Source: Flagellimonas maritima (lineage in GTDB: Bacteria; Bacteroidota; Bacteroidia; Flavobacteriales; Flavobacteriaceae). From it: a stretch of 64,000 nt of DNA. The stretch is taken from the NCBI RefSeq assembly GCF_003269425.1, contig NZ_CP030104.1, positions 1,855,501 to 1,919,500 on the forward strand. Reading direction: 5' to 3'. Shown here piece after piece: positions 4,660 through 50,708 of this stretch. Both the position numbers and the translations under genes were made by a program. The notes under the pieces were generated by a model. It had not been told where the DNA came from and ran no database searches. It worked only from the letters and a program-made list of their open reading frames with translations. Numbering within the stretch: the first letter of the stretch is position 1; every line of letters begins with the position of its first letter.

Positions 4660-4830
4660 GGATGAAGGGTGAAGGGGGAATGGGTGAAAGGTGACGGGTG
4701 AAGGGTGAAAGGTGACGGGTGAAGGGTGAAGGGTGACGGATGACGGATGACGGATGACGAGTGACCGATGACGGGTGACGGGTGACGGGTGACGGGTGAC
4801 GGGTGATGGGTGATGGGTGAAGGGCGAAAG
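4660..4830. repeat. Heptamer minisatellite upstream of lipoprotein copy 1
   Basis: About 24 tandem copies of a 7-bp unit, GGRTGAN on the plus strand (TCAYCCN in the sense direction of the minus-strand gene). Variants GGGTGAC, GGGTGAA, GGATGAC and GGGTGAT are grouped in blocks. It lies about 100 bases upstream of the lipoprotein start. The same unit forms a larger array before copy 2. The remaining 145 bp to the next gene show no gene. Confidence 0.93.
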
Positions 4831-35445: not shown

Positions 35446-35487
35446 TTTATACTGTACTTATCAGTATGTGATAGTGTTTATTAAATA

Positions 35488-35537
35488 GACACCTCGGGAA
35501 AATTTGTAGGATAGCAGATTATTTTCGGGGTGTTTTT
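35488..35537 (+). terminator. Probable terminator of nrdBA
   Basis: ACACCTCGGGAAAAT can pair with ATTTTCGGGGTGT around a 22-base loop, followed by TTTTTATT. The stem is imperfect. It lies 43 bases after the nrdA stop. Confidence 0.55.
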
Positions 35538-35565
35538 ATTGGTTTTATGTTGACCGTTGTCAGAT

Positions 35566-35688
35566 ATGAGATGTTGGATTTGAGTAGTGAGATGTTAGAT
35601 TTGAGTAGTGAGAAATGGGATATGAGATGTTGGATTTGAGATGTTAGATTTGAGTAGTGAGAAATGGGATATGAGAAATGAGGGGTCA
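35566..35688. repeat. Imperfect tandem repeat of GAGATGTT(G/A)GATTT-type units
   Basis: Interleaved near-repeats GAGATGTTGGATTT, GAGATGTTAGATTT, GAGTAGTGAG and GAGAAATGGGATAT recur over about 120 bp between nrdA and the heptamer array. The unit length is irregular. Not coding. Confidence 0.8.
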
Positions 35689-35726
35689 GCTTCAAGTTGC
35701 TTCCAATAACCCAAAATTCAAGTTTT

Positions 35727-36320
35727 TCATCCTTCACCCGTCACCCTTCATCCATCACCCTTCATCCATCACCCTTCATCCTTCACCCTTCATCCATCAT
35801 CCGTCATCCGTCACCCATCACCCATCCCCTTTCACCCGTCACCCGTCACCCATCATCCGTCACCCGTCACCCGTCACCCGTCACCCGTCACCCGTCACCC
35901 GTCACCCGTCACCTTTCACCCGTCACCTTTCCCCTTTCGCCCGTCACCTTTCGCCCATCCCCCGTCACCCGTCACCCATGATCCTTCACCCATCCCCCTT
36001 CACCCGTCATCGGTCACCCTTCACCCGTCACCCGTCACCTTTCACCCGTCACCCATGATCCTTCACCCATCACCCTTCATCCATCATCCGTCATCCGTCA
36101 TCCGTCATCCGTCATCCGTCATCCTTCACCTTTCACCCTTCACCCTTCATCCATCATCCGTCATCCTTCGCCCGTCATCCTTCGCCCGTCACCCTTCATC
36201 CATCATCCATCATCCGTCACCCGTCACCCGTCATCCATCACCCATCATCCGTTACCCGTCACCCTTCCACCCGTCATCCGTCATCCGTCATCCGTCATCC
36301 GTCATCCGTCACCTTTCCCT
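35727..36320. repeat. Large heptamer minisatellite (TCAYCCN)
   Basis: About 85 copies of a 7-bp unit, TCAYCCN, with variants TCACCCG, TCATCCG, TCACCCT, TCATCCA and TCACCTT. Variants occur in runs, for example eight TCACCCG units near 35869-35920 and runs of TCATCCG near 36090. The unit is the reverse complement of the array before lipoprotein copy 1, and it lies about 105 bases upstream of copy 2. It is free of stop codons on the plus strand, giving spurious HPSP-rich reading frames. Confidence 0.95.
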
Positions 36321-36426
36321 TCAAAACCCCCATCCATCAACCCAAAAAGGCCATCCGTCAATCCACCGCCCCGTGGCCCATGGGATTTTCCTTACTTGTA
36401 CCGCAAACTTTAAAATATTTTTTATC

Positions 36427-37983
36427 ATGAAAAGAATCAACTATTTGGGCATGCTGTCAATGGCACTCTGCCTTATGGTATGGGCATGCGGCAAGGACGA
36501 TGCCCCAACAACGACACCAGAGCCCGAGCCAGAGCCGATCGCGGCGCCGACCATTTCCGATTTCAGCCCGATCAGCGGGCCCGTTGGAACGGCGGTCACC
36601 ATAGAGGGGACCAACTTCAGCACCACCGCGGCCAACAATACCGTGACCTTCGGCACCGTTGCCGCCACCGTGGCCAGTGCCACGGCTACCAAGATCGTGG
36701 CCAGCGTGCCATCGGGCGCTGCGACCGGCAAGGTGGGCGTTGCCGTTGGCGGCAAGACCGCCGCCAGTACCAAGGACTTTACCGTTACCGTAACGGAGGA
36801 GGAAAAGAACCCGTCAATAGGGCTGGACAAAGAGGATTTCCAGCTGTTCCGCTACGATACGGCCGAGCTGGCCGTAGTGGACAAGGTGGACGTGGACGGG
36901 GATAGCCCCGTTGCGTGGAGCAGCGACGACGAGGAGATCGCCACCGTGGACGAGAACGGAACGGTAAAGGGCCTCAAGGTGGGGACCGCCACCATTACCG
37001 CCACCGTGGAAGAAGCCTCCGCAAGCGTTACGGTCACCGTGGACCCCAACGTATATATGGCAGGGTATGTACAATCTTCTGGTTTACCTCAAGCTGTGAT
37101 CTGGAAGAACGGGGTGATGACCGAGCTGACCGACGGCACCAAGGAAGCAACGGCAAATGCGGTGTTCGTATATGGCGAGGACGTCTATGTTGCGGGCCAT
37201 GAAAAAGATCAAGACAATAATAGAAGGGCCATGCTATGGATCAACGGAGATCAGATAGCTTTGTCGAACAGCCTTGGTATTACCTCTTCAATTGCACGTG
37301 ACGTTGTTGTCAACGAGTCGGGGTATTATGTAGTGGGGCATCAGTCTACCAATGAAGGATCGTCAGGGCGAGTTTGGATATCCAATGCCAATGACGTAGT
37401 ACTAGTCGAACCAGGTTACGAAACAAACTTTCCTAGAGCGATATCCATGGACGACCAGAACAACTGGTACGTATCCGGCTATATAAGGCCAGATGCGGGT
37501 TTCGATGACGAGGCCTGTTATTGGACGGCAGGAACGGCTGCAAATCCCGAAATTCTCGAAAATGATGCCCGTGCTTACGATATCCAAGTGGTGGGGAACG
37601 ATGTCCATGTATCGGGATATAGAGTGGTGGATGGAACAAGAGTGGCAACAACATGGAAGAACGGTGCGGGGACCGACCTGACCGACGGGACCAGTAACTC
37701 AATTGCCACTTCACTGTTCGTAACGGGCACGGATATATATGCGACGGGAAATGATAGTGACAATTCATTAGTCTGGAAGAATGGTGTTGTTGGCACATTG
37801 CTTAACATCGACGATAGCACCTCCTTTCTCGAATCCGTATTTGTGTATGGTACAGATGTATATAGCTGTGGAGCTGTGTCGCAAAATTTGCAAAAGGCGA
37901 TTTTATGGAAAAATGGGGAACCAACAATATTTTTTCCGGAAGATTTTTCTGAAAGTAGCGCCTTTTCGGTCTTTGTCGATTAA
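36427..37983 (+). CDS. Surface lipoprotein with IPT/TIG, Big2 and WKNG propeller repeats, copy 2
   Basis: 518 residues from the ATG at 36427. A frame running in from the minisatellite adds 124 HPSP-type residues and is rejected because copy 1 lacks it and the lipobox would be buried. Architecture is as in the 3000-4562 copy: lipobox Cys21 followed by GKDD, IPT/TIG (about 40-121), Big2 (129-206), then about seven VYVxG/WKNG repeats. The first 206 residues differ from copy 1 at only a handful of positions (for instance IAAPTISDF for TAAPTISGF). The propeller shows many more changes, including LPQAVIW for SRQAVVW and a shorter C-terminus. Function unknown. Confidence 0.85.
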   Translation: MKRINYLGMLSMALCLMVWACGKDDAPTTTPEPEPEPIAAPTISDFSPISGPVGTAVTIEGTNFSTTAANNTVTFGTVAATVASATATKIVASVPSGAATGKVGVAVGGKTAASTKDFTVTVTEEEKNPSIGLDKEDFQLFRYDTAELAVVDKVDVDGDSPVAWSSDDEEIATVDENGTVKGLKVGTATITATVEEASASVTVTVDPNVYMAGYVQSSGLPQAVIWKNGVMTELTDGTKEATANAVFVYGEDVYVAGHEKDQDNNRRAMLWINGDQIALSNSLGITSSIARDVVVNESGYYVVGHQSTNEGSSGRVWISNANDVVLVEPGYETNFPRAISMDDQNNWYVSGYIRPDAGFDDEACYWTAGTAANPEILENDARAYDIQVVGNDVHVSGYRVVDGTRVATTWKNGAGTDLTDGTSNSIATSLFVTGTDIYATGNDSDNSLVWKNGVVGTLLNIDDSTSFLESVFVYGTDVYSCGAVSQNLQKAILWKNGEPTIFFPEDFSESSAFSVFVD

Positions 37984-38017
37984 TGGTTACGATCAAACAA
38001 ACTTATTTATAACATAC

Positions 38018-38046
38018 AAAGGGCCGCCCAATGGGCGGCCTTTTTC
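38018..38046 (+). terminator. Rho-independent terminator of lipoprotein copy 2
   Basis: Stem GGCCGCCC / GGGCGGCC with a 3-nt loop, followed by TTTTTC; identical to the terminator of copy 1. The following 176 bp (38063-38238) hold no gene. Confidence 0.92.
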
Positions 38047-38238
38047 TTTTTGGTTGTCCTATTCAAGGAATAACGGATCAACGTGATCGGTAGCGTACAG
38101 GCATCGTGTTGGAGCCACTGTTCAGAAACTAACATAGAAAACACTGTTTTAGCAGGCTTAGGTATGCGGAGACAAAAAAGTACCCAAAACCCGTACTCTG
38201 AGGCATTCAATGATCCAACTAGCCAATTATGTAGCGGC

Positions 38239-38889
38239 CTATAAAGACCACGCCCTGCCGTCAGTCAAAGTTTGCTCATCCTCGCAGGCAATGTATTCTC
38301 CAGGTATGGGCAAATAGGCCAAAACCTCTTCCCCTATATATTCTGTATTTTTATAGGACCAAATGGCCATTTCACGGAGGGAGCCGGCAAAGCTGTAACG
38401 CGAAATCTCGTCATCAAGTTTGGCCACCATCCCTTTTTCAACATCGTTAAAATAAGCATCAACGGCTTCCAGATGTGCTTCTTCAACAGTAGCGGTTCTT
38501 TTCTTTAGGTATTTGGCCAGAACGGGCTCCAAATCCTCTTCGTTGAGTTCTGCTAGTGTTTCCTTTTGTGCGGTCTCTAAAACTTCATCCGTAAATAGAC
38601 CCATTCCCAACTTAAGAAAGTCTTGGTGTTCTTTGGGCAATGCCTCTTTTGCAAAAGTATCTATAAATACGTGCACGTTCATTTCAGTGGCAGAAGGGGT
38701 GTCGGTTTTGGGGAGTATCATGTCCAAGAGGGTATGTAGAACCATACCTTCGTCTTTGGTAAAAAAGCTTGGGGTCCAATCCAATACTTTTTTGCCTTCG
38801 CAACTTTGTAAAATTCCCAAAAGGCTAGGGGCAGCAACGGTGTACCCAAAGACAAGCCCCATATTTTTGAGTGCTATTCTTCTTTCCAT
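38239..38889 (-). CDS. Gluconate 2-dehydrogenase subunit 3 family protein, Tat lipoprotein-like
   Basis: 216 residues. The N-terminus carries a twin-arginine-like motif (ERRIALKNMG) and a lipobox-like ILQS-C30. The rest matches the small (gamma) subunit family of membrane gluconate and glucoside dehydrogenases, including the TLLDMILPKTDTPSATE segment near residue 55. In known complexes this subunit supplies the Tat signal and co-exports the cofactor-bearing GMC subunit, which has no signal of its own. The upstream GMC gene overlaps it by one base (TAATG), so the two are translationally coupled. Confidence 0.9.
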   Translation of the reverse strand: MERRIALKNMGLVFGYTVAAPSLLGILQSCEGKKVLDWTPSFFTKDEGMVLHTLLDMILPKTDTPSATEMNVHVFIDTFAKEALPKEHQDFLKLGMGLFTDEVLETAQKETLAELNEEDLEPVLAKYLKKRTATVEEAHLEAVDAYFNDVEKGMVAKLDDEISRYSFAGSLREMAIWSYKNTEYIGEEVLAYLPIPGEYIACEDEQTLTDGRAWSL

Positions 38890-40607
38890 TATATTGATCC
38901 TTTTTTAAGTTCTTTTGCCGCGTGGTCCACGGCTCTGGCGGTAAATGCCATATAGGTCAAAGAGGGGTTTACGCAACTTGCCGAGGTCATAAAAGAACCA
39001 TCGGTAACATAGACATTCTTGACCGAGTGCAGTTGGTTGTTCGCGTTCACCACCGATGTTTTTGGATTCTTGCCCATCCGTGCCGTTCCCATTTCATGGA
39101 TTCCCAAACCAAGGGCATATTCATCATCGTAGATTTCAATATCCCTTACCCCTGATTTCTCCAACATTGTAGCAGCCTGTTCCTGCATATCTTTGCGCAT
39201 GTTGAGCTCGTTTTCCTTTATTTCGGCATCAAAAGTAACGGTAGGCAGTCCCCATTGGTCCACTTTATCATAATCCAGCGTCATTTTATTGTCGTGATAG
39301 GGCAGTATTTCGCCAAATGCCAACATGTTCATGGTCCAACCGCCCGGTTTTAGAATGGCATCTTTAAACGCTTTTCCGTGCGAAAGCTCTGCTGCGGCAT
39401 CTTCATAATCGCCCCTACCTGCACCACCTTGGTACCCATAGCCCCGGGTGAAATCTTTCATGTTACTGTCGCCGCCCAGGTTACGGAACCGTGGAATGTA
39501 GATTCCGTTGGGCTTTCTTCCCTTATAATATTTATCGTCAAAACCGTCCATTTTGCCTCTTGCACCGGTCTTAAAATGATGGTCCATAATATTATGTCCC
39601 AATTCCCCGGAATCGTTCCCCATACCATTTGGGAACCTATCGGATTTGGACTGCATCAAAATTGAGGTAGAGGCGATGGCCGAGGCACAAAGGAAAATAA
39701 CTTTGGCCTTGAACTCATAGGTTTCTTTGGTTACCCGGTCTATCACTTTTACCCCTGTTGCTTTCTTTGTATTGGAATCATACATGATTTCATGTACAAT
39801 GGAATCTGGCCGTAAGGTCATATTGCCGGTTCTTTCGGCTGCGGGCAATGTAGAGGAATTGCTGCTAAAGTAGGCGCCAAATGGGCAACCTCTTACGCAC
39901 CTGTTCCTAAACTTACAGGAACTGCGGTTTAAACCGTCAAATTTTTTATCGCTGTTGATGTGGGCGACCCTTCCTGCGGTAACCACGCGCCCATCAAAAT
40001 TATCCGAAACCTTTTCGCGAACGTGCTGCTCAACACAGTTAAGTTCCATCATGGGTTCAAATTGGCCATCGGGTAATTGGGGCAAGTTCAACAATTCCCC
40101 AGAAACACCGATGTAGCTTTCAACTTTATCGTACCAAGGGGCAATATCTTTATAACGCACGGGCCAATCTATGGCTACGCCTTCCTTTTTATTGGCCTCA
40201 AAATCAATATCGCTCCAGCGATAACTATGGCGGCCCCACATTAAGGAACGTCCCCCAACGTGGTATCCGCGGATCCAATCAAATCGTTTTGTCTCATTAT
40301 AAGGATGCTCTATGTCATCCACAAACCAAAAATGGTGCGGTGCTTTTATGGTATAGCCCGTTCGGTTTTGCTTTTCTTGTCTTTTGAGCTGTTCCGGTGA
40401 AAGTTCACCATTGTTTGGAAAATCCCAGAGGTCTTTGTTGGCAGTTGGGTAGTCTGTAATATGGTTGACCATACGGCCACGTTCCAAAACCAAGGTCTTT
40501 AAGCCCTTTTCACAAAGTTCTTTTGCGGCCCAACCACCACTAATGCCCGTTCCTACTACTATGGCATCGTATGACTCCTGCTCATCGTTGTAATAAAATT
40601 TACTCAT
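38889..40607 (-). CDS. GMC oxidoreductase (FAD), sugar/glucoside dehydrogenase-type large subunit
   Basis: 572 residues. The FAD Rossmann motif is AIVVGTGISGGWAAKEL near residue 15, followed by the ERG motif (VLERGRMV). The middle has RNRCVRGCPFGAYFSSNSST, a cysteine-containing segment typical of the gluconate/glucoside dehydrogenase subgroup. The C-terminal GMC part shows HEMGTARMG and SFMTSASCVNPSLTYMAF with the His/Asn active-site pair. No signal peptide; export by the Tat signal of the small subunit is expected. It should oxidise a sugar hydroxyl and pass electrons to a cytochrome, which is not in this window. A 3-OH glycoside substrate is inferred from the neighbours. Confidence 0.92.
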   Translation of the reverse strand: MSKFYYNDEQESYDAIVVGTGISGGWAAKELCEKGLKTLVLERGRMVNHITDYPTANKDLWDFPNNGELSPEQLKRQEKQNRTGYTIKAPHHFWFVDDIEHPYNETKRFDWIRGYHVGGRSLMWGRHSYRWSDIDFEANKKEGVAIDWPVRYKDIAPWYDKVESYIGVSGELLNLPQLPDGQFEPMMELNCVEQHVREKVSDNFDGRVVTAGRVAHINSDKKFDGLNRSSCKFRNRCVRGCPFGAYFSSNSSTLPAAERTGNMTLRPDSIVHEIMYDSNTKKATGVKVIDRVTKETYEFKAKVIFLCASAIASTSILMQSKSDRFPNGMGNDSGELGHNIMDHHFKTGARGKMDGFDDKYYKGRKPNGIYIPRFRNLGGDSNMKDFTRGYGYQGGAGRGDYEDAAAELSHGKAFKDAILKPGGWTMNMLAFGEILPYHDNKMTLDYDKVDQWGLPTVTFDAEIKENELNMRKDMQEQAATMLEKSGVRDIEIYDDEYALGLGIHEMGTARMGKNPKTSVVNANNQLHSVKNVYVTDGSFMTSASCVNPSLTYMAFTARAVDHAAKELKKGSI

Positions 40608-40742
40608 TTAATAGGATTGTTTATTTCCTAAATGTATTAATTATTAAATTAATTTTCTACATTTAATCCCTATGTTTATTGAGAATGTATCACTATAACG
40701 TTGTAGTTTTTTGATTCTTGTCAATGATAGACCATCAACTAT

Positions 40743-41747
40743 ATGAAAAGAAGAGATTTCATTCAAAATAGTGCCCAAACCGGAGCAGCGCTTACATTAT
40801 TGGGGTTTTACGCCTGTAATCAAAACCGTAAAAAAGAATCGCAAAAAACTGAAATGACCGAAGAAGTCCCTGAAAAAGAGGAACAGTTGTTCAAACTTTC
40901 GCTTGCACAATGGTCCATTCATAAAATGATCAACGACGAGGGAATGAATCCTTATCTTTTTGCTGAAAAAGCAAAGAGTTTGGGGTTTTCAGGCTTGGAA
41001 TATGTAAACCAATTGTACGAGGACGAGTTGAAGGCTTTTGAATCTTCAAAAGAAGCTATGGAAGACTTTGTTCGTAAATCCAAAATGGAAAGTGAAAAGC
41101 ATGGACTGGAGAACCTCATCATAATGATCGATCATGAAGGGGATTTGTCAGCTGCAGATGAACAAGAACGAAAAACAGCGGTAGAAAATCATTATAAATG
41201 GGTAGATGCCGCAGCAGCACTTGGATGTCACTCCGTGCGGGTCAACCTTATGGGGAGCAAGGTCGCCGAAGAATGGACCCCAGCATCCGTAGATGGGCTA
41301 ACGCAATTGGCCAACTATGCAAAAGATAAAAATATCAATGTCATTGTAGAAAACCATGGCGGATTCTCTTCCAATGCACAAATGTTGGTGGAGGTGATGG
41401 AAAAGGTTGATCTCCCCAATTGTGGGACACTCCCTGATTTTGGCAATTTCTGTGTTAAACGCGAAGATGGTTCCTATTTTGATACAGCCTGCATAGAAGA
41501 ATACGATAGATATAAGGGAATAGAAGAACTAATGCCCTATGCAAAGGCGGTCAGCGCAAAATCACATGATTTTGATGCCGAGGGAAACGAAATCCATACA
41601 GACTATGGCCGGATGCTGAAAATTGTTAAAGACTCCGGTTACAGAGGGTATATTGGTGTAGAGTACGAAGGAGATACGTTGAGTGAGGAAGAGGGAATTC
41701 TGGCGACCAAAAAATTAGTGGCCAATTCCTTAAATTTATCCATATAA
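40743..41747 (+). CDS. Exported sugar phosphate isomerase/epimerase-type TIM-barrel lipoprotein
   Basis: 334 residues. The N-terminus MKRRDFIQNSAQTGAAL is a Tat signal, ending in a lipobox before Cys25, so the enzyme is probably exported and lipid-anchored. The rest is an AP-endonuclease-2/xylose-isomerase-like barrel: LAQWSIHKMI, GFSGLEYVNQLY, ENHGGFSSNAQ, DFGNF, KSHDFDAEGNE and YIGVEYEGD, with the Glu/His/Asp metal ligands. It starts 135 bases from the divergent GMC gene and heads an operon of four genes with small gaps (12-18 bases). Substrate unknown; probably an oxidised sugar. Confidence 0.88.
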   Translation: MKRRDFIQNSAQTGAALTLLGFYACNQNRKKESQKTEMTEEVPEKEEQLFKLSLAQWSIHKMINDEGMNPYLFAEKAKSLGFSGLEYVNQLYEDELKAFESSKEAMEDFVRKSKMESEKHGLENLIIMIDHEGDLSAADEQERKTAVENHYKWVDAAAALGCHSVRVNLMGSKVAEEWTPASVDGLTQLANYAKDKNINVIVENHGGFSSNAQMLVEVMEKVDLPNCGTLPDFGNFCVKREDGSYFDTACIEEYDRYKGIEELMPYAKAVSAKSHDFDAEGNEIHTDYGRMLKIVKDSGYRGYIGVEYEGDTLSEEEGILATKKLVANSLNLSI

Positions 41748-41759
41748 AACACTTGGCCC

Positions 41760-42203
41760 ATGAAGGGATTTTTACATCAGCTCTTTGACTATAATTTTTA
41801 CTCGAATAGAAAGCTTATTGAGCAATGTATGGGTATGAAAGAAGTTCCTGAAAAGAGTTTGGAGCTTTTCAACCATATCCTAAATGCGCACCATACGTGG
41901 AACAAAAGAATTATGGGAAAACCTAAAGAATTCGATATTTCCCATCAACATTTACTGGAGAATTGGGAGGATGTCCACTATGAAAATCAACGGACATCTT
42001 TTGAGATCATTACCAATACCGAAGACTTTAGTACGCGGATAGACTATGAAAGCAGCGAGGGAAGAACCTTTGCCAATGAATTAAAGGATATACTCTTCCA
42101 CATCATCAACCATTCCACACACCACAGAGGACAGATTTTGGCAGATTTTAGAACTAGCGGCATAGAACCAGAATCTTTGGACTATATATTTTATAAAAGA
42201 TAA
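41760..42203 (+). CDS. DinB-family protein
   Basis: 147 residues with the four-helix DinB fold. Metal-ligand histidines are visible in HILNAHHTWNKRI (about 42-54) and HIINHSTHHRGQIL (about 118-131). The family includes thiol-transferase-related proteins and many of unknown role. It lies 12 bases after the isomerase and 18 bases before the MFS gene, which suggests co-expression with the sugar genes. Its function in this operon is not clear. Confidence 0.85.
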   Translation: MKGFLHQLFDYNFYSNRKLIEQCMGMKEVPEKSLELFNHILNAHHTWNKRIMGKPKEFDISHQHLLENWEDVHYENQRTSFEIITNTEDFSTRIDYESSEGRTFANELKDILFHIINHSTHHRGQILADFRTSGIEPESLDYIFYKR

Positions 42204-42221
42204 CCTTACTATTATTTACTT

Positions 42222-43448
42222 ATGAACCTTAAGACGAAGTTTCAACTATCCTTTATGATGTTCCTTGAATTTTTTATCTGGGGAGGATGGTTTGTTACCA
42301 TGGGCATTTATTTGCCAAATACGCTACAGGCCAGTGGCGCCGATATTGCCGTGGCTTATTCCACACAATCTTGGGGAGCTATCATTGCACCATTTATTAT
42401 AGGATTGATTGCGGACCGTTATTTTAATGCAGAAAAAATCCTGGGCATTTCCCATTTGATAGGCGCCGTCTTAATGTACCAATTGGCCAACGCAACAGAT
42501 TTTGGAACATTTTATCCCTATGTCTTGGGTTATATGATCGTATATATGCCCACGCTGGCACTGGTGAATTCAGTTTCGTTCAATCAGATGAAGGATCCCG
42601 CAAAGGAATTTTCTTTTGTGCGTGTCTTTGGGACCATAGGTTGGATCGTGGCAGGGCTATCAATTAGTTTTTTTGGATGGGACAGTGAAGTGGGCGTACA
42701 GGAAGGTTTGCTCAAGAACACCTTTTTAATGGTCGGTGCGGCCTCGGCAGTGCTTGGCCTATTTAGTTTTACACTGCCCAAAACTCCACCAAAAGTGTCC
42801 AAGGACGAAAAAATTTCAATCTCCGATATATTGGGTCTTGAAGCTTTGAAATTATTAAAAGACCGAAACTTTCTTATCTTTTTTATAGCATCCGTATTGA
42901 TTTGTATTCCGTTGGCCTTCTACTACCAACATGCAGGGCAGTTTTTAGGCGAGATAGGAGTTTCCAATCCAGCGGGCAAAATGACGATTGGGCAAATCTC
43001 TGAAGTTTTGTTTATGTTGTTATTGCCGTTCTTCTTCAAGCGTTTTGGATTCAAAAAAACCATCTTGGCAGGAATGTTGGCATGGACGGTCCGTTACCTG
43101 CTATTCGCCTATGGAAATGCAGGTGAACTTGCATTTATGTTGCTTATAGGCATTGCACTTCACGGTATATGCTATGATTTTTTCTTTGTGTCGGGACAAA
43201 TTTATACAGATTCCAAAGCTGGCGAGCGATATAAGAGTGCAGCGCAAGGGTTAATAACTTTAGCTACATACGGAGTTGGAATGTTGATCGGTTTTTGGAT
43301 AGCAGGAATGATTACCGACTCTTATCTAATTTCTGAGAACGTGCACGAATGGAAAAATATTTGGACATTCCCCGCTATTTTTGCGTTTGTAGTGCTCGTT
43401 CTTTTCGTACTACTGTTTAAAAATGAAAAAATAGAATATAAAGAATAG
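42222..43448 (+). CDS. MFS permease, nucleoside:H+ symporter (NupG/XapB-like) family
   Basis: 408 residues, about twelve membrane helices. N-terminal features FMMFLEFFIWGGWFVTMG, YSTQSWGAIIAPFIIGLIADRYF and FVRVFGTIGWIVAG match the NupG/XapB nucleoside symporter branch of MFS. In Bacteroidota, members of this branch are often found in carbohydrate loci, so the substrate may be a (keto-)sugar rather than a nucleoside; this is inference. It is located between the DinB gene and the Gfo/Idh/MocA gene, with a 5-base gap to the latter. Confidence 0.88.
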   Translation: MNLKTKFQLSFMMFLEFFIWGGWFVTMGIYLPNTLQASGADIAVAYSTQSWGAIIAPFIIGLIADRYFNAEKILGISHLIGAVLMYQLANATDFGTFYPYVLGYMIVYMPTLALVNSVSFNQMKDPAKEFSFVRVFGTIGWIVAGLSISFFGWDSEVGVQEGLLKNTFLMVGAASAVLGLFSFTLPKTPPKVSKDEKISISDILGLEALKLLKDRNFLIFFIASVLICIPLAFYYQHAGQFLGEIGVSNPAGKMTIGQISEVLFMLLLPFFFKRFGFKKTILAGMLAWTVRYLLFAYGNAGELAFMLLIGIALHGICYDFFFVSGQIYTDSKAGERYKSAAQGLITLATYGVGMLIGFWIAGMITDSYLISENVHEWKNIWTFPAIFAFVVLVLFVLLFKNEKIEYKE

Positions 43449-43453
43449 CTTCT

Positions 43454-44590
43454 ATGCCAAAAAAAATAAGACTGGGAATACTTGGGGGTGGGGGAGATTC
43501 CCTTATCGGCGTACTCCATAGAGTTGCCTCGTTCATCAATGACAATTATGAAATAGCCGGTGCAGTATTTAATGCCGATTTTGATGAAAGCCTAAATTTT
43601 GCAAAGGAAATCGATGTACCTGTTAACCGTATCTACAAAGACTTTGATACATTGGTGGAAGAAGAATTAAAGCTTCCCGAAGATGAACGTATACAAGTAT
43701 GTTCCATTTTAACGCCCAACTTTCTACATTTTCCAATGGCAAGGAAATTGTTGGATAATGGATTCCATGTCATCTGTGAAAAACCTATGACAACTACCTA
43801 TGAAGAGGCTTTGATTCTTCAAAAAGCTAAAATTAAATCCAAGAAAGTTTTTGCGGTCACACATACGTACACAGGCTATCCAATGGTACGCCAAATGCGT
43901 GAAATGATTAAAGAAGGAGCCTTGGGAAAGATCCATAAAGTGGATGCGCAATACTATCAGGGTTGGATAAATACCATAATACATGACAAGAAAAAGCGCG
44001 CTTCCGTTTGGCGATTGGACCCAAAGAAAGCTGGTATAAGTTCCTGCATGGGCGACATAGGGGTACATGCATTTAATATGATCGAATACACAACGGGGCT
44101 GCAGATTAAATCCCTCCTATGCGATTTCAACTATTTGTACGGGGACAATCAAATGGATGTGGATGGTACAGTTCTGATTAGAATGGATAAGCACGTAAAA
44201 GGGGTAATACGCGCCAGCCAAGTGGCCACAGGGGAAGAAAATGGCCTGTCCATTGCCATTTACGGTGAAAAGGGAGCTTTAAAGTGGGAACAGGAAAAAC
44301 CTAATTTTTTATACAAACTAAGCGATACCGAACCATTGCAAGTCTATAGACCGGGACATGCTTATAACTCAGCATTGTCTTTGGATGGCACCAAACTGCC
44401 ACCAGGACACCCAGAAGGTATTTTTGATGCTATGGCCAATATTTATTTGGGCATGGCACGAGCTATTCGGGGAGAAAAATACAATGATGGTGAATTTCCA
44501 ACCATGCAGGACGGGGTTCGTGGGCTAAATTTTATAGAAAGTACGGTGGCATCGCACAAGCAGGGAAATATTTGGGTGAATTTGGACTGA
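43454..44590 (+). CDS. Gfo/Idh/MocA family oxidoreductase (cytoplasmic)
   Basis: 378 residues without a signal peptide. The Rossmann motif GILGGGGDSLIGVLHRVA lies near residue 10, the catalytic-region EKPMTTTYEEA near residue 110, and the metal-free active-site pattern GDIGVHAFNMIEY near 195. The enzyme uses NAD(P) to oxidise or reduce a sugar or sugar derivative. It is the last gene of the 40743-44590 operon, next to the permease, which fits a cytoplasmic step after uptake, possibly reduction of a 3-keto sugar (inference). Confidence 0.92.
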   Translation: MPKKIRLGILGGGGDSLIGVLHRVASFINDNYEIAGAVFNADFDESLNFAKEIDVPVNRIYKDFDTLVEEELKLPEDERIQVCSILTPNFLHFPMARKLLDNGFHVICEKPMTTTYEEALILQKAKIKSKKVFAVTHTYTGYPMVRQMREMIKEGALGKIHKVDAQYYQGWINTIIHDKKKRASVWRLDPKKAGISSCMGDIGVHAFNMIEYTTGLQIKSLLCDFNYLYGDNQMDVDGTVLIRMDKHVKGVIRASQVATGEENGLSIAIYGEKGALKWEQEKPNFLYKLSDTEPLQVYRPGHAYNSALSLDGTKLPPGHPEGIFDAMANIYLGMARAIRGEKYNDGEFPTMQDGVRGLNFIESTVASHKQGNIWVNLD

Positions 44591-44596
44591 TTGCGA

Positions 44597-45061
44597 TTAC
44601 CTTTCAAAAACTTTTTCAAATTGCTCAAATACCACGATCATGCTTTCTTTTGGGGCTTTGCCAAATTCTGAGAGCTCTCTGGTATAATAATTCCAGTGTG
44701 TCTTTTTCCAATATTCCAAACTTTTGTCCCCTTCGCCTTCCAAACGTGCATGGTCAGCATGGATTGCAAAATAGGGAACCAGTTTTACCGAAGAAGTTCT
44801 TACAATACATTTGGCATTCCCGGACCAATCTGTCACTACCGCGAAATCGCCAACTTTAGGCAAAGGCTCTTTCCGTAGCTGTAATCCCAAAAGTGAATGT
44901 GACGTAGCACGTTTAATATCCTTGCAGACCAAACTTGCACAAATATTGGCATCTTTTTCATTATCGCAAAAGTATATCACTTTAGGAGCGTCCTCAGAGG
45001 CAAATTCCAGGTGCGCATCTAAAAAATCACCCCATAGATTTCGGGCAGAAGCATTTTCCAT
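44597..45061 (-). CDS. ASCH-domain protein
   Basis: 154 residues. The beta-barrel ASCH domain shows SLLGLQLRKEPLPKVGDFAVVTDW in pieces, CIVRTSSVKLVPY and EYWKKTHWNYYTREL, features of the YqfB/ASCH group thought to bind RNA or nucleosides. No catalytic role can be given. It is transcribed against the two sugar operons on either side and so is probably not part of the pathway. The 247-bp gap after it (45062-45308) is the promoter region of the next operon; nothing specific is visible. Confidence 0.82.
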   Translation of the reverse strand: MENASARNLWGDFLDAHLEFASEDAPKVIYFCDNEKDANICASLVCKDIKRATSHSLLGLQLRKEPLPKVGDFAVVTDWSGNAKCIVRTSSVKLVPYFAIHADHARLEGEGDKSLEYWKKTHWNYYTRELSEFGKAPKESMIVVFEQFEKVFER

Positions 45062-45308
45062 TTGGGAAAATTAAGAAAAATTGTATTGATTTATGGTAAA
45101 AAGTATTTTCAAATATCGATTGATCACTGTTAGAAATAGATACCGCCAACCCTATTTTCATTAAGCAACATCTTATTTTAATTGTTAGCTTATCCCTATA
45201 TTTATGTTTTTCTAACTTGGAAAATAAAAACACGACACTTTTTCTTGAATATAGGGGATAAATCTCAAAACGATATAAGGGTTTTTCAATTTTTAAAACT
45301 TTGATCAA

Positions 45309-46361
45309 ATGAAAACGATAAAAGGACCGGCTGTATTTCTTGCACAATTTGTTGATAGTCAAGCGCCGTTCAATTCCTTGGATGGAATATGCAAATGGGC
45401 TTCCAATTTGGGATACAAAGGAATTCAAATACCGACTTGGGAATCTTTTTTGATAGATTTGGATGAAGCGGCGGCAAGCCAGGATTATTGTGATGAACTT
45501 AAAGGAACGATCAATTCATACGGATTGGAAATCACGGAACTTTCAACCCATTTACAGGGACAGTTGGTTGCCGTGAATCCTGCATATGATATCATGTTTG
45601 ATAATTTTGCCCCCGAAAAAGTAAAGAACAATCCAAAAGCGCGTACCGAGTGGGCAATTGAAACGGTAAAAAAAGCTGCCACGGCAAGCAGGCGATTGGG
45701 CTTACATGCCCATGCCACATTTTCCGGGGCATTGTTATGGCATACGGCACACCCTTGGCCGCAAAGGCCACCGGGATTGGTAGAAATGGGCTTTGAGGAA
45801 TTGGCCAAAAGGTGGATGCCCATTCTAAATCACTTTGATAAGGAAGGTGTAGATGTTTGCTACGAAATTCATCCAGGTGAAGATTTACACGATGGGGATA
45901 CCTTTGAACGTTTTCTGGAAGCCACGGGAAATCATAAAAGGGTCAATATTTTGTATGACCCCAGTCATTTTGTATTGCAACAACTGGATTACATTGCTTA
46001 CATAGACCATTATCATGAATTTATAAAATCCTTTCATGTGAAGGATTCCGAATTTAACCCTACTGGAAAGAAAGGTGCCTTTGGAGGGTACAACGATTGG
46101 GGTGAACGTGCCGGCAGGTATCGTTCTTTAGGTGACGGACAGATTGATTTTAAAACTATTTTCTCTAAGTTGACGCAATACGGTTGTGATGTTTGGGCAG
46201 TGATGGAATGGGAATGCTGTATTAAGAGTCCGGAGCAGGGTGCGCGTGAAGGAGCTAAATTTATCCAAGACCATATTATAGAAGCAACTACCAAAACTTT
46301 TGATGATTTTGCGGGTGCTGAAACAGATACAGAAAAGCTTAAAAAAATCCTTGGGCTATGA
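45309..46361 (+). CDS. Sugar phosphate isomerase/epimerase (xylose isomerase-like TIM barrel)
   Basis: 350 residues, no signal peptide, so cytoplasmic. Barrel motifs: FLAQFVDSQAPFNSL, LGYKGIQIPTWE, HATFSGALLWHTAHPWPQRP, CYEIHPGEDLHDG (Glu ligand), LYDPSHFVLQQLDY (Asp/His), SFHVKDSEFNPTGKKG and VMEWECC (Glu). This matches a subgroup common beside DUF1080 proteins. The stop overlaps the ATG of the following DUF1080 gene by four bases (ATGA), giving translational coupling. Substrate unknown; probably a sugar or keto-sugar. Confidence 0.9.
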   Translation: MKTIKGPAVFLAQFVDSQAPFNSLDGICKWASNLGYKGIQIPTWESFLIDLDEAAASQDYCDELKGTINSYGLEITELSTHLQGQLVAVNPAYDIMFDNFAPEKVKNNPKARTEWAIETVKKAATASRRLGLHAHATFSGALLWHTAHPWPQRPPGLVEMGFEELAKRWMPILNHFDKEGVDVCYEIHPGEDLHDGDTFERFLEATGNHKRVNILYDPSHFVLQQLDYIAYIDHYHEFIKSFHVKDSEFNPTGKKGAFGGYNDWGERAGRYRSLGDGQIDFKTIFSKLTQYGCDVWAVMEWECCIKSPEQGAREGAKFIQDHIIEATTKTFDDFAGAETDTEKLKKILGL

Positions 46362-47101
46362 AAAAAAAGATTTTGTTTTTAGTTGTGATAGCGGTGATGT
46401 CCTGTAAGGACAAACCAAAGGAAACCCAAAACGAAATGAAAGAAGAAAGGGAGACTCAAATAGAAGATAACAATGAATGGACTGTTTTGTTTGATGGGTC
46501 TTCTTTTGATGGCTGGCATTTTTATAGGGGGGGAGCAGTTGCAGAACCTTGGAAATTAGAGAATGGAGCAATGGTCTTCCATCCCCCGGAAAATAGACCG
46601 AAAGGAGAGAGTTATAATATCGTTACCGATAAAGAATATAAAAATTTTGTGCTCAGATTGGAATGGAAGATTTCCGAAGGTGGAAACAGTGGTATATTTT
46701 GGGGAGTCAACGAAAGTGAAGAATTTGGACAGCCCTATGAAACAGGGCCGGAGATACAGGTTTTGGACGATGAAAAACACCCAGATGCAAAAAATGGCAC
46801 CACACACCAAGCAGGAGCATTGTACGATATGGTAGCTCCATCTGAAAAAGCGGTAAAGTCCGTAGGTGAATGGAATATGGTTGAATTGATGGTAAACCAT
46901 GGAGAAAATAAGGGTATTGTGATTTTGAACGATAAAAAAATTGCAGAGTTTCCCGTTAACGGGCCTGAATGGGACAAAATGGTTGCAGATTCCAAGTTTG
47001 CAGATTGGGATGGTTTTGGAATTTACAAAACAGGAAAAATAGGATTACAGGATCACGGTGACATCGTCGCTTTCAGAAATATCAAAATAAAAGAACTATA
47101 A
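46358..47101 (+). CDS. DUF1080 (3-keto-disaccharide hydrolase family) lipoprotein
   Basis: 247 residues. The lipobox VAVMS-C16 style signal (MKKKILFLVVIAVMSC) is followed by KDKPKE. The DUF1080 jelly-roll domain (about 38-247) shows WTVLFDGSSFDGWHFY, LRLEWKISEGGNSGIFWGVNES, GPEIQVLDDEKHPDA and WNMVELMVNHGENKGIV. The Pfam family is named for a 3-keto-disaccharide hydrolase, which cleaves glycosides already oxidised at C3. Lipid-anchored, so it probably acts on the periplasmic or outer surface. One base separates it from a second DUF1080 gene. Confidence 0.93.
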   Translation: MKKKILFLVVIAVMSCKDKPKETQNEMKEERETQIEDNNEWTVLFDGSSFDGWHFYRGGAVAEPWKLENGAMVFHPPENRPKGESYNIVTDKEYKNFVLRLEWKISEGGNSGIFWGVNESEEFGQPYETGPEIQVLDDEKHPDAKNGTTHQAGALYDMVAPSEKAVKSVGEWNMVELMVNHGENKGIVILNDKKIAEFPVNGPEWDKMVADSKFADWDGFGIYKTGKIGLQDHGDIVAFRNIKIKEL

Positions 47102-47102
47102 T

Positions 47103-47858
47103 ATGCCAAATTACATTAAAATCTTCCTCTTATTTGTGGTAATTGCACCAAATGGTTTTGGTCAGGAAAAAGAGCCTACAACGCCCGAGGCCACGGAGTT
47201 TTACGAACCGGTTCCACCTAAGGTTATTCCAGGCACGAATGGGACGCCCCCAAGTGATGCCATCGTTCTTTTTGACGGGAAGGATTTTGACCAATGGATA
47301 AGCAGTGTTGACAGCATGGCAGTAAAATGGCACTTAAATGAAGATGGTAGCATGACGGTTAAGGATAAAGCGGGGAATATTCAGACCAAAAAGAATTTTG
47401 GCAGTGTGCAGCTCCACCTTGAATGGAAATCCCCGGCAGAAGTTCAACGTGAAGGGCAAAACAGAGCAAATAGTGGTGTATTTATCCAGCAACGCTATGA
47501 GGTTCAAGTATTGGATAACAATGACAACCCTACCTATACCAATGGTCAAGTGGGCTCAATCTATAAACAAGGTGTACCATTGGCCATGGCCTCTGTACCC
47601 ACGGGAGAATGGAACACTTATGACATTATCTTCCATGCTCCAGAGTTTAGTAGGGGCGGAAATATTGTTGAACCGGCAACGGTTACCGTATTGCACAATG
47701 GTGTTTTAATACAAGACCATTTTGTGATTGAAGGGACCATTAAATACATTGGTTGGCCCAAATATCAGGCCCACGGGAAAGCTCCATTGGTATTGCAGGA
47801 CCATAAAGATAATAGTAGGGTAAGTTTTAGAAATATATGGGTAAGGGAACTGGATTAA
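47103..47858 (+). CDS. Exported DUF1080 (3-keto-disaccharide hydrolase family) protein
   Basis: 251 residues with a type I signal peptide (MPNYIKIFLLFVVIAPNGFG, cleaved near residue 20), not a lipobox. The DUF1080 domain (about 52-250) has AIVLFDGKDFDQWISS, QLHLEWKSPAE, NSGVFIQQRYEVQVLDN and RVSFRNIWVREL. It differs enough from its neighbour (lipoprotein versus soluble, QQR for WGV at the active rim) to suggest different substrates. Last gene of the 45309-47858 operon. Confidence 0.93.
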   Translation: MPNYIKIFLLFVVIAPNGFGQEKEPTTPEATEFYEPVPPKVIPGTNGTPPSDAIVLFDGKDFDQWISSVDSMAVKWHLNEDGSMTVKDKAGNIQTKKNFGSVQLHLEWKSPAEVQREGQNRANSGVFIQQRYEVQVLDNNDNPTYTNGQVGSIYKQGVPLAMASVPTGEWNTYDIIFHAPEFSRGGNIVEPATVTVLHNGVLIQDHFVIEGTIKYIGWPKYQAHGKAPLVLQDHKDNSRVSFRNIWVRELD

Positions 47859-47914
47859 ATCACCATGTATTTGGTTGCGATCATCGGAAACCATCCCTAA
47901 AAACCTATTTTAAT

Positions 47915-47922
47915 TACCTTTG
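47915..47922 (+). promoter_or_regulatory. -7 promoter element (TACCTTTG) of yicC-gmk-nadD
   Basis: A perfect TAnnTTTG followed by CC, 19 bases before the ATG of yicC. No -33 TTG at the right distance was found. Confidence 0.45.
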
Positions 47923-47941
47923 CCAAAATTCATAATTCTGT

Positions 47942-48799
47942 ATGATTCAATCCATGACAGGCTTTGGGAAGCATGTAGTGCAACTCCCATCCAAAAAAAT
48001 TACTATCGAGCTTAAATCACTTAATAGTAAAAATCTTGATATCAATACCAGAATACCTCAATCTTACAGGGAAAAAGAGTTGGAACTGCGTAAAATGATA
48101 GCCAATGTTTTGGTGAGGGGCAAAGTCGATTTTGGATTATATGTAGAAATTACCGGTGAAGAAACCACTGCTGAGGTCAACCAAGTCGTTGTTAAACAAT
48201 ACATGCAACAACTTGCCAAAATAGCCAGTGGCGATGATTTAAAATTGCTGGAGATGGCATTGCGTATGCCAGATACCATGAAAACGGATAAAGGTGATAT
48301 TGACGAAACGGAGTATGAATCCATAAAAGGGGCAATGGTACAGGCACTTACCAAGATAATCGCTTTTCGCAATGAAGAAGGTGAAGATTTGAAGAAGGAT
48401 TTTATGACCCGTCTCAAAAATCTCAGAACGCTTCTTGGTGAAGTAAATAAGATGGATCCCGAGCGATTGGATACCGTAAGGGAGCGTTTGGAGAAAGCCG
48501 TATCAGACTTAAAAGTGGATTTAGATGCCAATAGATTTGAACAAGAACTGATCTACTATCTGGAGAAGTATGATATTACAGAAGAAAAGGTACGCTTGAC
48601 AAATCATTTAAATTATTTTGAAGCTACCTTGCAATCCAAAGATTCCAATGGTAAAAAACTAGGCTTTATAGCACAAGAAATTGGTAGGGAAATCAATACT
48701 ATAGGATCAAAGGCCAACTATGCACCTATGCAGCAGTTGGTGGTACAAATGAAGGATGAGTTGGAGAAGATAAAGGAGCAAATGCTAAACGTGTTATGA
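47942..48799 (+). CDS. yicC: YicC/YloC family endoribonuclease
   Basis: 285 residues matching YicC/YloC from MTGFGKHVVQLPSKKI to the C-terminal SKANYAPMQQLVVQMKDELEKIKEQ. The family motif LKSLNSKNLDINTRIP and the central FRNEEGEDLKKDF region are present. Recent work identifies YicC proteins as endoribonucleases. It lies directly before gmk, the common gene order in many bacteria, with a four-base overlap (ATGA). Confidence 0.93.
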   Translation: MIQSMTGFGKHVVQLPSKKITIELKSLNSKNLDINTRIPQSYREKELELRKMIANVLVRGKVDFGLYVEITGEETTAEVNQVVVKQYMQQLAKIASGDDLKLLEMALRMPDTMKTDKGDIDETEYESIKGAMVQALTKIIAFRNEEGEDLKKDFMTRLKNLRTLLGEVNKMDPERLDTVRERLEKAVSDLKVDLDANRFEQELIYYLEKYDITEEKVRLTNHLNYFEATLQSKDSNGKKLGFIAQEIGREINTIGSKANYAPMQQLVVQMKDELEKIKEQMLNVL

Positions 48800-49395
48800 A
48801 AAAGGGAGGGAAACTCATCATTTTTTCAGCTCCTTCGGGTAGCGGTAAAACTACCATAGTAAAGCATCTTTTGGAGCAGCCAGAACTAAATTTGGCGTTT
48901 TCTGTATCAGCGACTTCACGTCCACGAAGGGGAAAGGAAAAAGAAGGGATCAATTATTATTTCATGTCCATTTCAGCATTTAAAAACCATATCAAGAATG
49001 GGGATTTTTTAGAATGGGAAGAAGTATACAGGGATAATTTCTATGGGACTTTAAAAAGTGAGGTGGAACGTTTATGGGCAGAAGGGAAGAACGTAATTTT
49101 TGATATCGATGTAGTAGGTGGCTTGCGGATAAAAAAGAAATTTCCAGATCAAACTTTGGCCGTATTTGTAAAACCACCAAGCGTGGACGAGCTTAAAATC
49201 AGATTAAAAAAACGAAGTACGGAAAGCGATGATAAAATAAACATGCGTGTAGCAAAAGCTTCGGTTGAACTGGCCACAGCACCCCAATTTGACAAGGTCA
49301 TTAAAAATTATGACCTTGAGGTAGCCTTAGCAGAATCCTATAAGTTGGTAGCCAATTATGTTGGAGCAAAGGTTTCCAATAAAGAAGAGGAATAG
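48796..49395 (+). CDS. gmk: Guanylate kinase
   Basis: 199 residues. The P-loop APSGSGKT (12-19), the GMP-binding TSRPRRGKEKEGINYYF (near residue 40) and the YGTLKSEVERL lid region are intact. It phosphorylates GMP (and dGMP) to the diphosphate. It overlaps yicC by four bases and is three bases from nadD, in one operon. Confidence 0.97.
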   Translation: MKKGGKLIIFSAPSGSGKTTIVKHLLEQPELNLAFSVSATSRPRRGKEKEGINYYFMSISAFKNHIKNGDFLEWEEVYRDNFYGTLKSEVERLWAEGKNVIFDIDVVGGLRIKKKFPDQTLAVFVKPPSVDELKIRLKKRSTESDDKINMRVAKASVELATAPQFDKVIKNYDLEVALAESYKLVANYVGAKVSNKEEE

Positions 49396-49398
49396 AAA

Positions 49399-49983
49399 AT
49401 GAAAAAAGTAGGACTCTACTTTGGCACTTTTAACCCTATTCATATAGGACATTTAGTGATTGCCAACCACATGGTCGAGTATTCGGACTTGGATGAGGTA
49501 TGGTTTGTAATTACGCCACAGAGCCCATTTAAAAAGAAGCAATCCTTGTTGGATAACCATCACAGATATCAGATGATCTCTGAAGCCGTTCATGAATACC
49601 CAAAATTGAAGCCCAATAAAATTGAGTTTGACCTTCCGAAGCCAAATTACACTATTGACACTTTAGTGCATTTAGATGAGCAGTATGGCAGCGACCTTAG
49701 TTTTTCGTTGATTATGGGTGAGGACAATCTAAAAAGCTTTCACAAATGGAAGAATTACGAAGCAATTCTGGAAAACTACTGTATTTACGTCTATCCAAGG
49801 ATTTCAGAGGGCAGTATGGAAAACCAGTTTAAAAATCACCCTAAGATTACCCAAGTAAACGCCCCTATCATGGAAATATCATCTACATTTATACGTAATC
49901 AACATAAAAAAGGCAAGAATATAAGGCCTTTGCTTCCCCATTCGGTTTGGAAATATATGGATGAGATGAATTTTTATAGGTAA
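49399..49983 (+). CDS. nadD: Nicotinate-nucleotide adenylyltransferase
   Basis: 194 residues. The nucleotidyltransferase motif is GTFNPIHIGHL (9-19), and the C-terminal ISSTFIRNQ motif matches the family's ISSTxIR. It makes nicotinate adenine dinucleotide from NaMN and ATP in NAD synthesis. Third gene of the yicC-gmk-nadD operon; it ends convergently 14 bases from the DUF6503 gene. Confidence 0.96.
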   Translation: MKKVGLYFGTFNPIHIGHLVIANHMVEYSDLDEVWFVITPQSPFKKKQSLLDNHHRYQMISEAVHEYPKLKPNKIEFDLPKPNYTIDTLVHLDEQYGSDLSFSLIMGEDNLKSFHKWKNYEAILENYCIYVYPRISEGSMENQFKNHPKITQVNAPIMEISSTFIRNQHKKGKNIRPLLPHSVWKYMDEMNFYR

Positions 49984-49997
49984 AAAGATTTTCGTAC

Positions 49998-50708
49998 TTA
50001 CCTTTTAAGAATATCGGTAGCTAAGTATTTGTCGTCCTTGTTATAATACCAGGCTCTATTTTTTGGCATAAGAATACCTTCAACATTCTCCAACCCTTTT
50101 AAAAGTATATATTCACCATCATTTTTACTCTCGTCGTGATAGAATTGATAAACTTCCATGGCATAGGTTTGCGGATCAAAGTAGAAATACCAAACGTCGT
50201 CGCCAACACCTTCTTCATAATTTACCTTTAAAACCAAATATTCCTTCCCCTTGAAAATTTTCGTCTCAACCTTCTCATCCAGGATAGTTCCGGCATCTTT
50301 TAATTTCATTGGAAGACCGTACAGATAGGTGTAGTAATCCTTCATCATATTGCCGCGCTCACATGTCAATTTATATTTTTTCCGGTCTGCATCCGTAATT
50401 TGTGGCGAACCGTTTAGACTTATCACGCAATTTTCCCCATCAAACCCATAACTATAAACCACCTTGTCTTTTTTTACTTTTAGTTTAAATTGCTCTTTGG
50501 GATTATCAATGGATATCATACTTGATCTTTCACTGGATTCCGGTCTTTCCGTAATTACCTCAAATTTACCTTTAAACGTATTCCACTGATTATTGGAATC
50601 ATGAAAAGCAATGGTACTATCCAACAGTTCCTTTGCAGAAATGTTTTGGCCATAAAAGACTTTTCCTGAAAAGAATATCATGATTAAAAGAAGAGAACGC
50701 ATCGGCAA
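49998..50708 (-). CDS. Exported DUF6503-like protein
   Basis: 236 residues with a signal peptide (MPMRSLLLIMIFFSGKVFYG, cleavage near residue 21). The mature part, with ELLDSTIAFHDSNNQWNTFKG at its start and YYTYLYGLPMKLKDAGTIL and DDVWYFYFDPQTYAMEVYQ further on, resembles the Bacteroidota family DUF6503, probably a beta-rich periplasmic protein of the LolA-like type (inference). Function unknown. It lies 18 bases after the phosphate transporter gene on the same strand. Confidence 0.8.
   Translation of the reverse strand: MPMRSLLLIMIFFSGKVFYGQNISAKELLDSTIAFHDSNNQWNTFKGKFEVITERPESSERSSMISIDNPKEQFKLKVKKDKVVYSYGFDGENCVISLNGSPQITDADRKKYKLTCERGNMMKDYYTYLYGLPMKLKDAGTILDEKVETKIFKGKEYLVLKVNYEEGVGDDVWYFYFDPQTYAMEVYQFYHDESKNDGEYILLKGLENVEGILMPKNRAWYYNKDDKYLATDILKR

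Follow-up and report, generated by a model that had tools for sequence, protein, structure and literature searches.

A block of ten genes lies at positions 38239 to 47858 of a 64,000-nucleotide stretch of the Flagellimonas maritima genome (contig NZ_CP030104.1, positions 1,855,501 to 1,919,500; hereafter the window). It encodes a GMC flavoenzyme and its subunit 3 partner, two TIM-barrel proteins, a permease, a Gfo/Idh/MocA dehydrogenase and two DUF1080 proteins, together with a DinB-family and an ASCH-domain protein (Table 1). The block is read here, with a probability of about 0.75, as a glycoside-utilisation locus that works by oxidation, elimination, hydration and reduction. It is situated between nrdA (32965-35445) and yicC-gmk-nadD (47942-49983), four names that were assigned by eye, and a large, unrelated open reading frame follows nrdA.

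An earlier note on this DNA described eight genes in three short operons. All eight are found in the range that it gave. Their Pfam E-values lie far beyond the cut-off, and chance is therefore excluded for the genes of the block. The DinB and ASCH genes had been overlooked, so the block comprises ten genes, not eight. The genes form three operons. Subunit 3 and GMC make up the first on the minus strand, where the stop of GMC and the start of subunit 3 have one base in common. TIM1, DinB, MFS and Gfo, separated by 5 to 18 bases, form the second on the plus strand, and HYD, DUF1080a and DUF1080b form the third, also on the plus strand, with a four-base overlap of HYD and DUF1080a. The DinB gene is thus inside the second operon, and the ASCH gene, on the minus strand, separates the second from the third. 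As the note had also stated, Pfam detects no glycoside hydrolase, no regulator and no SusC-SusD pair of a Bacteroidota polysaccharide utilisation locus among the ten block proteins. No Rfam match at gathering score was obtained in window positions 35000-50000, and a pattern search of three intergenic stretches for the Bacteroidota promoter consensus gave no match.

Table 1. Genes and intergenic gap of the block, in window positions, with the domain or structural matches obtained
Feature	Position	Strand	Match or remark
Subunit 3	38239..38889	-	Pfam Gluconate_2-dh3 1.4e-22
GMC large subunit	38889..40607	-	Pfam GMC_oxred_C 2.1e-22
TIM1, exported TIM-barrel protein	40743..41747	+	Pfam AP_endonuc_2 2.3e-27
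DinB-family gene	41760..42203	+	Pfam DinB 1.3e-15
MFS permease, nucleoside:H+ symporter family	42222..43448	+	Pfam Nuc_H_symport 1e-118
Gfo/Idh/MocA dehydrogenase, cytoplasmic	43454..44590	+	Pfam 2.4e-23 and GFO_IDH_MocA 4.9e-18
ASCH-domain gene	44597..45061	-	Pfam ASCH 1.1e-19
Intergenic gap, 247 bases	45062..45308		Position of a second GMC gene in 37/67 well-covered close relatives
HYD, cytoplasmic TIM barrel	45309..46361	+	Pfam AP_endonuc_2 4e-38; PDB 8ro4 match
DUF1080a, exported lipoprotein	46358..47101	+	Pfam 3keto-disac_hyd 5.2e-49; eliminase/hydratase fold
DUF1080b, exported	47103..47858	+	Pfam 3keto-disac_hyd 1.5e-38; 4qhz E 8.3e-75

Predicted enzymes and their export

Export was called by our own simple signal rules, applied over the fetched loci in place of a trained predictor. 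The GMC protein has no export signal of its own, and an RR motif or Cys is found in 0 of 148 relatives. Subunit 3 displays an RR (Tat-like) signal followed by a Cys, and the RR motif is present in all 94 relatives. In related dehydrogenases the large subunit is carried by a signal-bearing partner, and subunit 3 is probably the partner that takes GMC across the membrane. The whole genome (3.77 Mb, one contig) has a single match each to GMC_oxred_C and Gluconate_2-dh3, the genes of this block, with three to DUF1080 and five to Cytochrom_C. The nearest solved relatives of GMC are the large subunits of fructose and FAD glucose dehydrogenases; its Cys motif, C231-x5-C237-x3-C241-P, recurs in 147 of 147 relatives. 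GMC is predicted to be a glycoside 3-dehydrogenase and, with subunit 3, would by family be the flavin C3 oxidoreductase of a non-hydrolytic locus.

A second GMC gene, ∼59 to 67% identical to that of the window, stands directly before HYD in 37 of 67 well-covered close loci (defined below). No remnant of it was found in the corresponding gap of the window (best tblastn E 0.35). With this gene missing and no cytochrome c gene in the block, 'complete', the word used in the earlier note, was too strong. The cluster is reduced relative to many of its relatives.

HYD aligns end to end with PDB entry 8ro4, titled "2-hydroxy-3-keto-glucal hydratase" and presumably AtHYD (E 8.5e-161, 224 of 350 residues identical, 64%). 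HYD is predicted to be the same enzyme and, by homology, to supply the hydratase of a non-hydrolytic locus. This name is preferable to that of a second TIM-barrel enzyme, under which the gene had been listed. None of 120 relatives has an export signal (RR or Cys). The Gfo protein is closest among solved structures to 3v5n (E 7.2e-87); a Cys signal is found in 0 of 119 relatives and an RR motif in one. By family match it corresponds to the Gfo/Idh reductase of such a locus, and it is a predicted 3-keto-glucose reductase.

DUF1080a displays both the DUF1080 domain and the fold of the "3-keto-glycoside eliminase/hydratase" entries 8rr2/9fbe and of Bacteroides thetaiotaomicron BT2157 (3osd). It is predicted to be a 3-keto-glycoside eliminase/hydratase; by fold and homology it would be the lyase of the locus. 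An H275N variant has been described from B. thetaiotaomicron, H275 being the histidine needed for hydration (PMC13273386); we infer that this enzyme is the DUF1080 protein. H233 of DUF1080a, invariant in 35 of 35 sequences, appears to fall on the H275 position when mapped by counting from the aligned ends. DUF1080b belongs to another DUF1080 subfamily and has a Sec-type signal with no Cys in the window's copy. The signal rules were positive for 93 of 95 DUF1080a and 58 of 82 DUF1080b sequences. The DUF1080 proteins had been regarded as hydrolases. Their solved relatives are titled eliminase/hydratase, and hydrolysis stands as the net reaction only; from the 8rr2/9fbe fold together with an 8ro4-like HYD, cleavage therefore probably proceeds by elimination and addition of water.

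The third DUF1080 protein of the genome is divergent and has a lipoprotein-like start (L224 6454-7137, G000:C1:3173453-3174136). A TonB-dependent-receptor-like gene precedes it, and histidine kinase-like and response regulator-like genes follow, all identified by eye.

TIM1 of the window carries an RR motif and a lipobox-like Cys. Among its orthologues (L005-L135) a Cys follows the hydrophobic stretch in 103 of 108, and an RR motif is present in 50 of 108, the others being Sec-like; the orthologues thus seem to vary in export route but to share lipid anchoring. The closest profile match is 4ovx, followed, by profile and by Foldseek with a predicted structure (predicted local distance difference test score 91.6), by 3-keto-C-glycoside eliminases. 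The metal ligands of OGE/CGE-type eliminases are Glu or His, Asp, His and Glu (PMC10628242). TIM1 has three of these four, as E203, D232 and E307 are invariant and the strand-7 histidine, located by alignment with DgpC, is Ser271 in 52 of 52 sequences. The catalytic histidine two residues past the first ligand is retained as H205, invariant in 52 of 52. TIM1 therefore keeps the Glu-x-His, Asp and Glu positions of the C-glycoside eliminases (DgpC/PuCGE, AgCGD, EuCGD) but differs from them in the strand-7 Ser, and the block contains no partner-subunit gene. On account of Ser271, assignment of TIM1 as a plain 3-keto-glycoside eliminase was rejected. The AtOGE structure does not appear among the matches listed for TIM1, an absence to which no meaning is attached. 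A 3-keto-glycoside lyase or a keto-sugar isomerase are possible assignments.

That the block has no cytochrome c gene, as had been noted, holds for the window; in six related genomes such a gene does lie close to GMC. In five loci (L104, L105, L107, L108, L111) a lipoprotein-like cytochrome c is encoded near subunit 3, on the other strand, and in the sixth genome, G094, one lies 1.8 kb from GMC; the distances in the six range from 645 to 1843 bases. The F. maritima genome encodes two relatives of these cytochromes, at C1:1436418-1436894 and C1:2996256-2996759. Of the 114 family matches, 60, chiefly those with higher scores, were placed together with one duplicate row in a tree, which divides into two clades at 100/98, with bootstrap values that had not settled. 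Clade A comprises 30 genes, including the six GMC-adjacent ones and C1:1436418-1436894, all in GMC-positive genomes. Clade B, also 30 genes, includes C1:2996256-2996759, and 13 of its 30 genes are in genomes with no GMC or HYD match. In 149 family genomes, scored by eye from listings, a gene was called A-like if at least 20 bits better against the F. maritima clade-A protein than against the clade-B protein. A-like genes are present in 31 of 77 GMC-positive and 4 of 72 GMC-negative genomes (Fisher 4.9e-7, kinship ignored), and 46 of the 77 have none at the 20-bit threshold. Confinement of clade-A cytochromes to GMC-positive genomes is weakened by the four exceptions (G014, G022, G023, G043). 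An acceptor encoded elsewhere had been anticipated, and the lipoprotein clade-A cytochrome at G000:C1:1436418-1436894 is a reasonable, unproven candidate. The clade-B paralogue (L163 6257-6763, G000:C1:2996256-2996759) is close to a nosZ-like gene (nos_propeller), which suggests that it is a nitrous oxide reductase partner.

Conservation and linkage of the block

Two sets of loci were compared, both picked by HYD, so that HYD counts within them hold by construction. The close set consists of the best 80 of 587 confirmed HYD loci, of which 67 have at least 8 kb before and at least 3 kb after HYD. Gfo is found in all 67, GMC in 66, TIM1 in 64, DUF1080a in 61, MFS in 59, DUF1080b in 55 and subunit 3 in 50. 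These loci also keep yicC (66), nadD (65), ASCH (66) and DinB (61). Flanking yicC is as constant as the block, and so the close set shows little beyond synteny.

To look beyond synteny, a distant set was taken, consisting of 40 of the 72 HYD matches in the 149 family genomes and limited to 67 to 88% identity and to matches with sufficient DNA on either side. In the 39 loci with full flanks, Gfo is retained in 39 and MFS in 29; DinB and ASCH are found in none. On this result DinB and ASCH were dropped as pathway parts: DinB is probably a lineage-specific bystander, and the ASCH gene is probably also a bystander. In 26 of the 39, nrdA, yicC, gmk and nadD are all absent from the stretch, yet much of the core is kept: Gfo in 26, TIM1 in 23, GMC in 22, subunit 3 in 21, MFS in 16, DUF1080a in 14 and DUF1080b in 11. 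Absences here may include replacement by other families, for example by a different MFS-like open reading frame in L024. A synteny comparison across relatives had been proposed as a check, and the block proves conserved, its core persisting even where the flanking genes differ. When position is ignored, HYD is present in 71 of the 149 genomes, GMC in 77 and both in 69 (Fisher 1.8e-30, kinship ignored).

HYD also matches 310 plasmid records, six of which were inspected. The Pseudoalteromonas plasmid carries Gfo, HYD, MFS, DUF1080, GMC, subunit 3 and TIM-barrel genes in one run. GMC, Gfo and TIM-barrel genes are near HYD on the Croceicoccus and Sphingobium plasmids, and on the Rhizobium plasmid HYD occurs with Gfo, a small TIM barrel and an ABC transporter. 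On the Azospirillum and Sulfitobacter plasmids (L138, L140) the HYD and Gfo relatives adjoin xylose isomerase, xylulokinase and ABC transporter genes, with no GMC; HYD is therefore also used elsewhere.

The proposed pathway and its alternatives

Gene content, homology, export signals and conserved linkage were computed; the reactions, electron flow, transported species and substrate are proposals built on them. Outside the cytoplasm, GMC/subunit 3 would oxidise a small glycoside at C3 of its sugar ring. An iron-sulphur cluster would probably relay the electrons to a cytochrome c whose gene lies elsewhere, for which the clade-A protein is the candidate. Cutting of the glycosidic bond by beta-elimination would fall to the exported DUF1080 proteins, with TIM1 perhaps taking part, and would release the aglycone and 2-hydroxy-3-keto-glucal; DUF1080 may itself hydrate part of this glycal to 3-keto-glucose. 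Oxidation and cleavage are thus predicted outside, and final hydration and reduction inside, the cytoplasm. With the steps split across compartments, either the keto-sugar or its glycal would have to pass through the inner membrane; the obvious carrier is the MFS permease, which is predicted to import the keto-sugar. Cytoplasmic HYD would then add water to the remaining glycal, and Gfo/Idh would reduce 3-keto-glucose to glucose. The earlier note had proposed exported oxidation at C3, exported cleavage, uptake by the permease and cytoplasmic reduction. This class of pathway fits the comparative evidence, with elimination and hydration in place of hydrolysis.

A more detailed version, in which a pathway divided between compartments includes previously unrecognised parts, can be put forward only tentatively, and is doubtful as a whole. 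In it, lipid-anchored TIM1 with its altered metal site would act on 3-keto-glycosides outside, the nucleoside-symporter-family permease would import 3-keto-glucose or 2-hydroxy-3-keto-glucal, and electrons would go to a lipoprotein cytochrome c that is encoded beside the dehydrogenase in some relatives and separately here.

This kind of pathway is already known, from Agrobacterium (PMC10628242) and partly from Caulobacter and Bacteroidota (PMC9007349); what is new is a conserved flavobacterial member. A literature search, part of which was too broad to help, gave no recognised description of the locus in Flavobacteriaceae. Fuller accounts of the pathway are reportedly found in Angew. Chem. 2024 (bacterial glucoside metabolism) and Nature 2024 (broad-specificity glycan pathway). 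In the B. thetaiotaomicron BT2157 system, which shares the DUF1080a fold, oxidation is presumably of the Gfo type, in contrast to the GMC flavoenzyme of the window; NCBIfam names the BT_2158 and BT_2159 families as 3-dehydrogenases. LacB is taken to be the cytochrome c component of LacABC. The three LacABC components are not found together in the block, which has no cytochrome c. Proximity of the LacABC and DUF1080 genes is reported for Caulobacter and also for Bacteroidota, in a study that left open what becomes of the 3-keto sugar (PMC9007349). Common to both is a periplasmic dehydrogenase encoded near exported DUF1080 proteins; in the window a hydratase and a reductase are linked to them.

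In Agrobacterium tumefaciens, a GlycDH / TAT / AtOGE / AtHYD / Gfo operon carries out oxidation, elimination, hydration and reduction (PMC10628242). As in the window, its flavin dehydrogenase has a partner with a Tat signal and is accompanied by TIM-barrel enzymes, a hydratase and a Gfo/Idh oxidoreductase. The window differs in its DUF1080 proteins, in a nucleoside-symporter-family MFS as the linked transporter, and in TIM1, which is exported, lipoprotein-like and of another TIM-barrel subfamily. The plasmid locus of Pseudoalteromonas sp. CF6-2 (L136) has the seven gene types of the window by annotation, with identities of 69% for HYD, 42% for Gfo, 35% for DUF1080 and 30% for GMC. Its GMC has no Cys motif, its TIM barrel is dissimilar to TIM1, subunit 3 was not found by tblastn, and an AraC regulator stands alongside.

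Several observations weigh against the glycoside pathway. Sequence similarity between the Pseudoalteromonas locus and the window is limited to Gfo, HYD, DUF1080 and GMC (tblastn E up to 1e-3), and the plasmid MFS belongs to another family, MFS_1. TIM1 lacks one metal-ligand histidine, and in 9 of 20 distant loci its relatives have no other block gene nearby. A hydratase in the cytoplasm would seem partly superfluous if the product of DUF1080 is already hydrated outside by DUF1080 itself. Finally, HYD and Gfo occur beside xylA/xylB and ABC genes without GMC on the Azospirillum and Sulfitobacter plasmids, and the HYD-Gfo pair alone is therefore no proof of the pathway.

These last two plasmids are also the basis for supposing that the 3-keto-sugar genes act on pentosides or free aldoses linked to xylose metabolism, and not on glucosides. 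The supposition is unlikely, as the two loci have neither GMC nor DUF1080 in the stretch shown and the window has neither xylA nor xylB. A locus for cyclitols or free polyols, in which GMC would oxidise a polyol and HYD and Gfo would be IolE- and IolG-like inosose enzymes, is very unlikely. HYD and Gfo do match the IolE (1.7e-16) and IolG (8e-11) models, respectively, well below the model cut-offs, and the inositol catabolism protein IolE 3cny is a weak HYD relative (E 2.1e-10). However, HYD is far nearer to the hydratase 8ro4 than to IolE, on which ground the inositol pathway was dropped, and DUF1080, whose solved relatives act on 3-keto-glycosides, is linked to the block in many loci. That the block amounts to nothing but old chromosomal synteny, with unrelated genes lying between nrdA and yicC-gmk-nadD, as the constancy of the flanks and the company of DinB and ASCH in the close set might suggest, is extremely unlikely given the 26 distant loci that keep much of the core without the flanks, the absence of DinB and ASCH from all 39, and the gammaproteobacterial plasmid with the same gene types together.

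Repeats in the window and possible implications for the family

Apart from the block, the window contains two arrays of the 7-base unit TCACCCG, one at 35734-36313 (∼83 copies) and one at 4663-4824 (23 copies, other strand). A whole-genome search with three units and at most two mismatches gave 24 matches, all within these arrays. The first part of the open reading frame 36055-37983 is encoded by the array, and TIG and Big_2 domains occur further on; its true start is probably inside the frame, at a lipoprotein-like signal.

The reading of the block as a glycoside-utilisation locus makes three gaps testable: what TIM1 does, which protein imports the keto-sugar and what accepts the electrons. 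If it is true, about half of the 149 sampled family genomes may be able to obtain glucose from small glycosides with neither glycoside hydrolases nor SusCD in the locus, and hydrolase-based annotation would miss this capacity.

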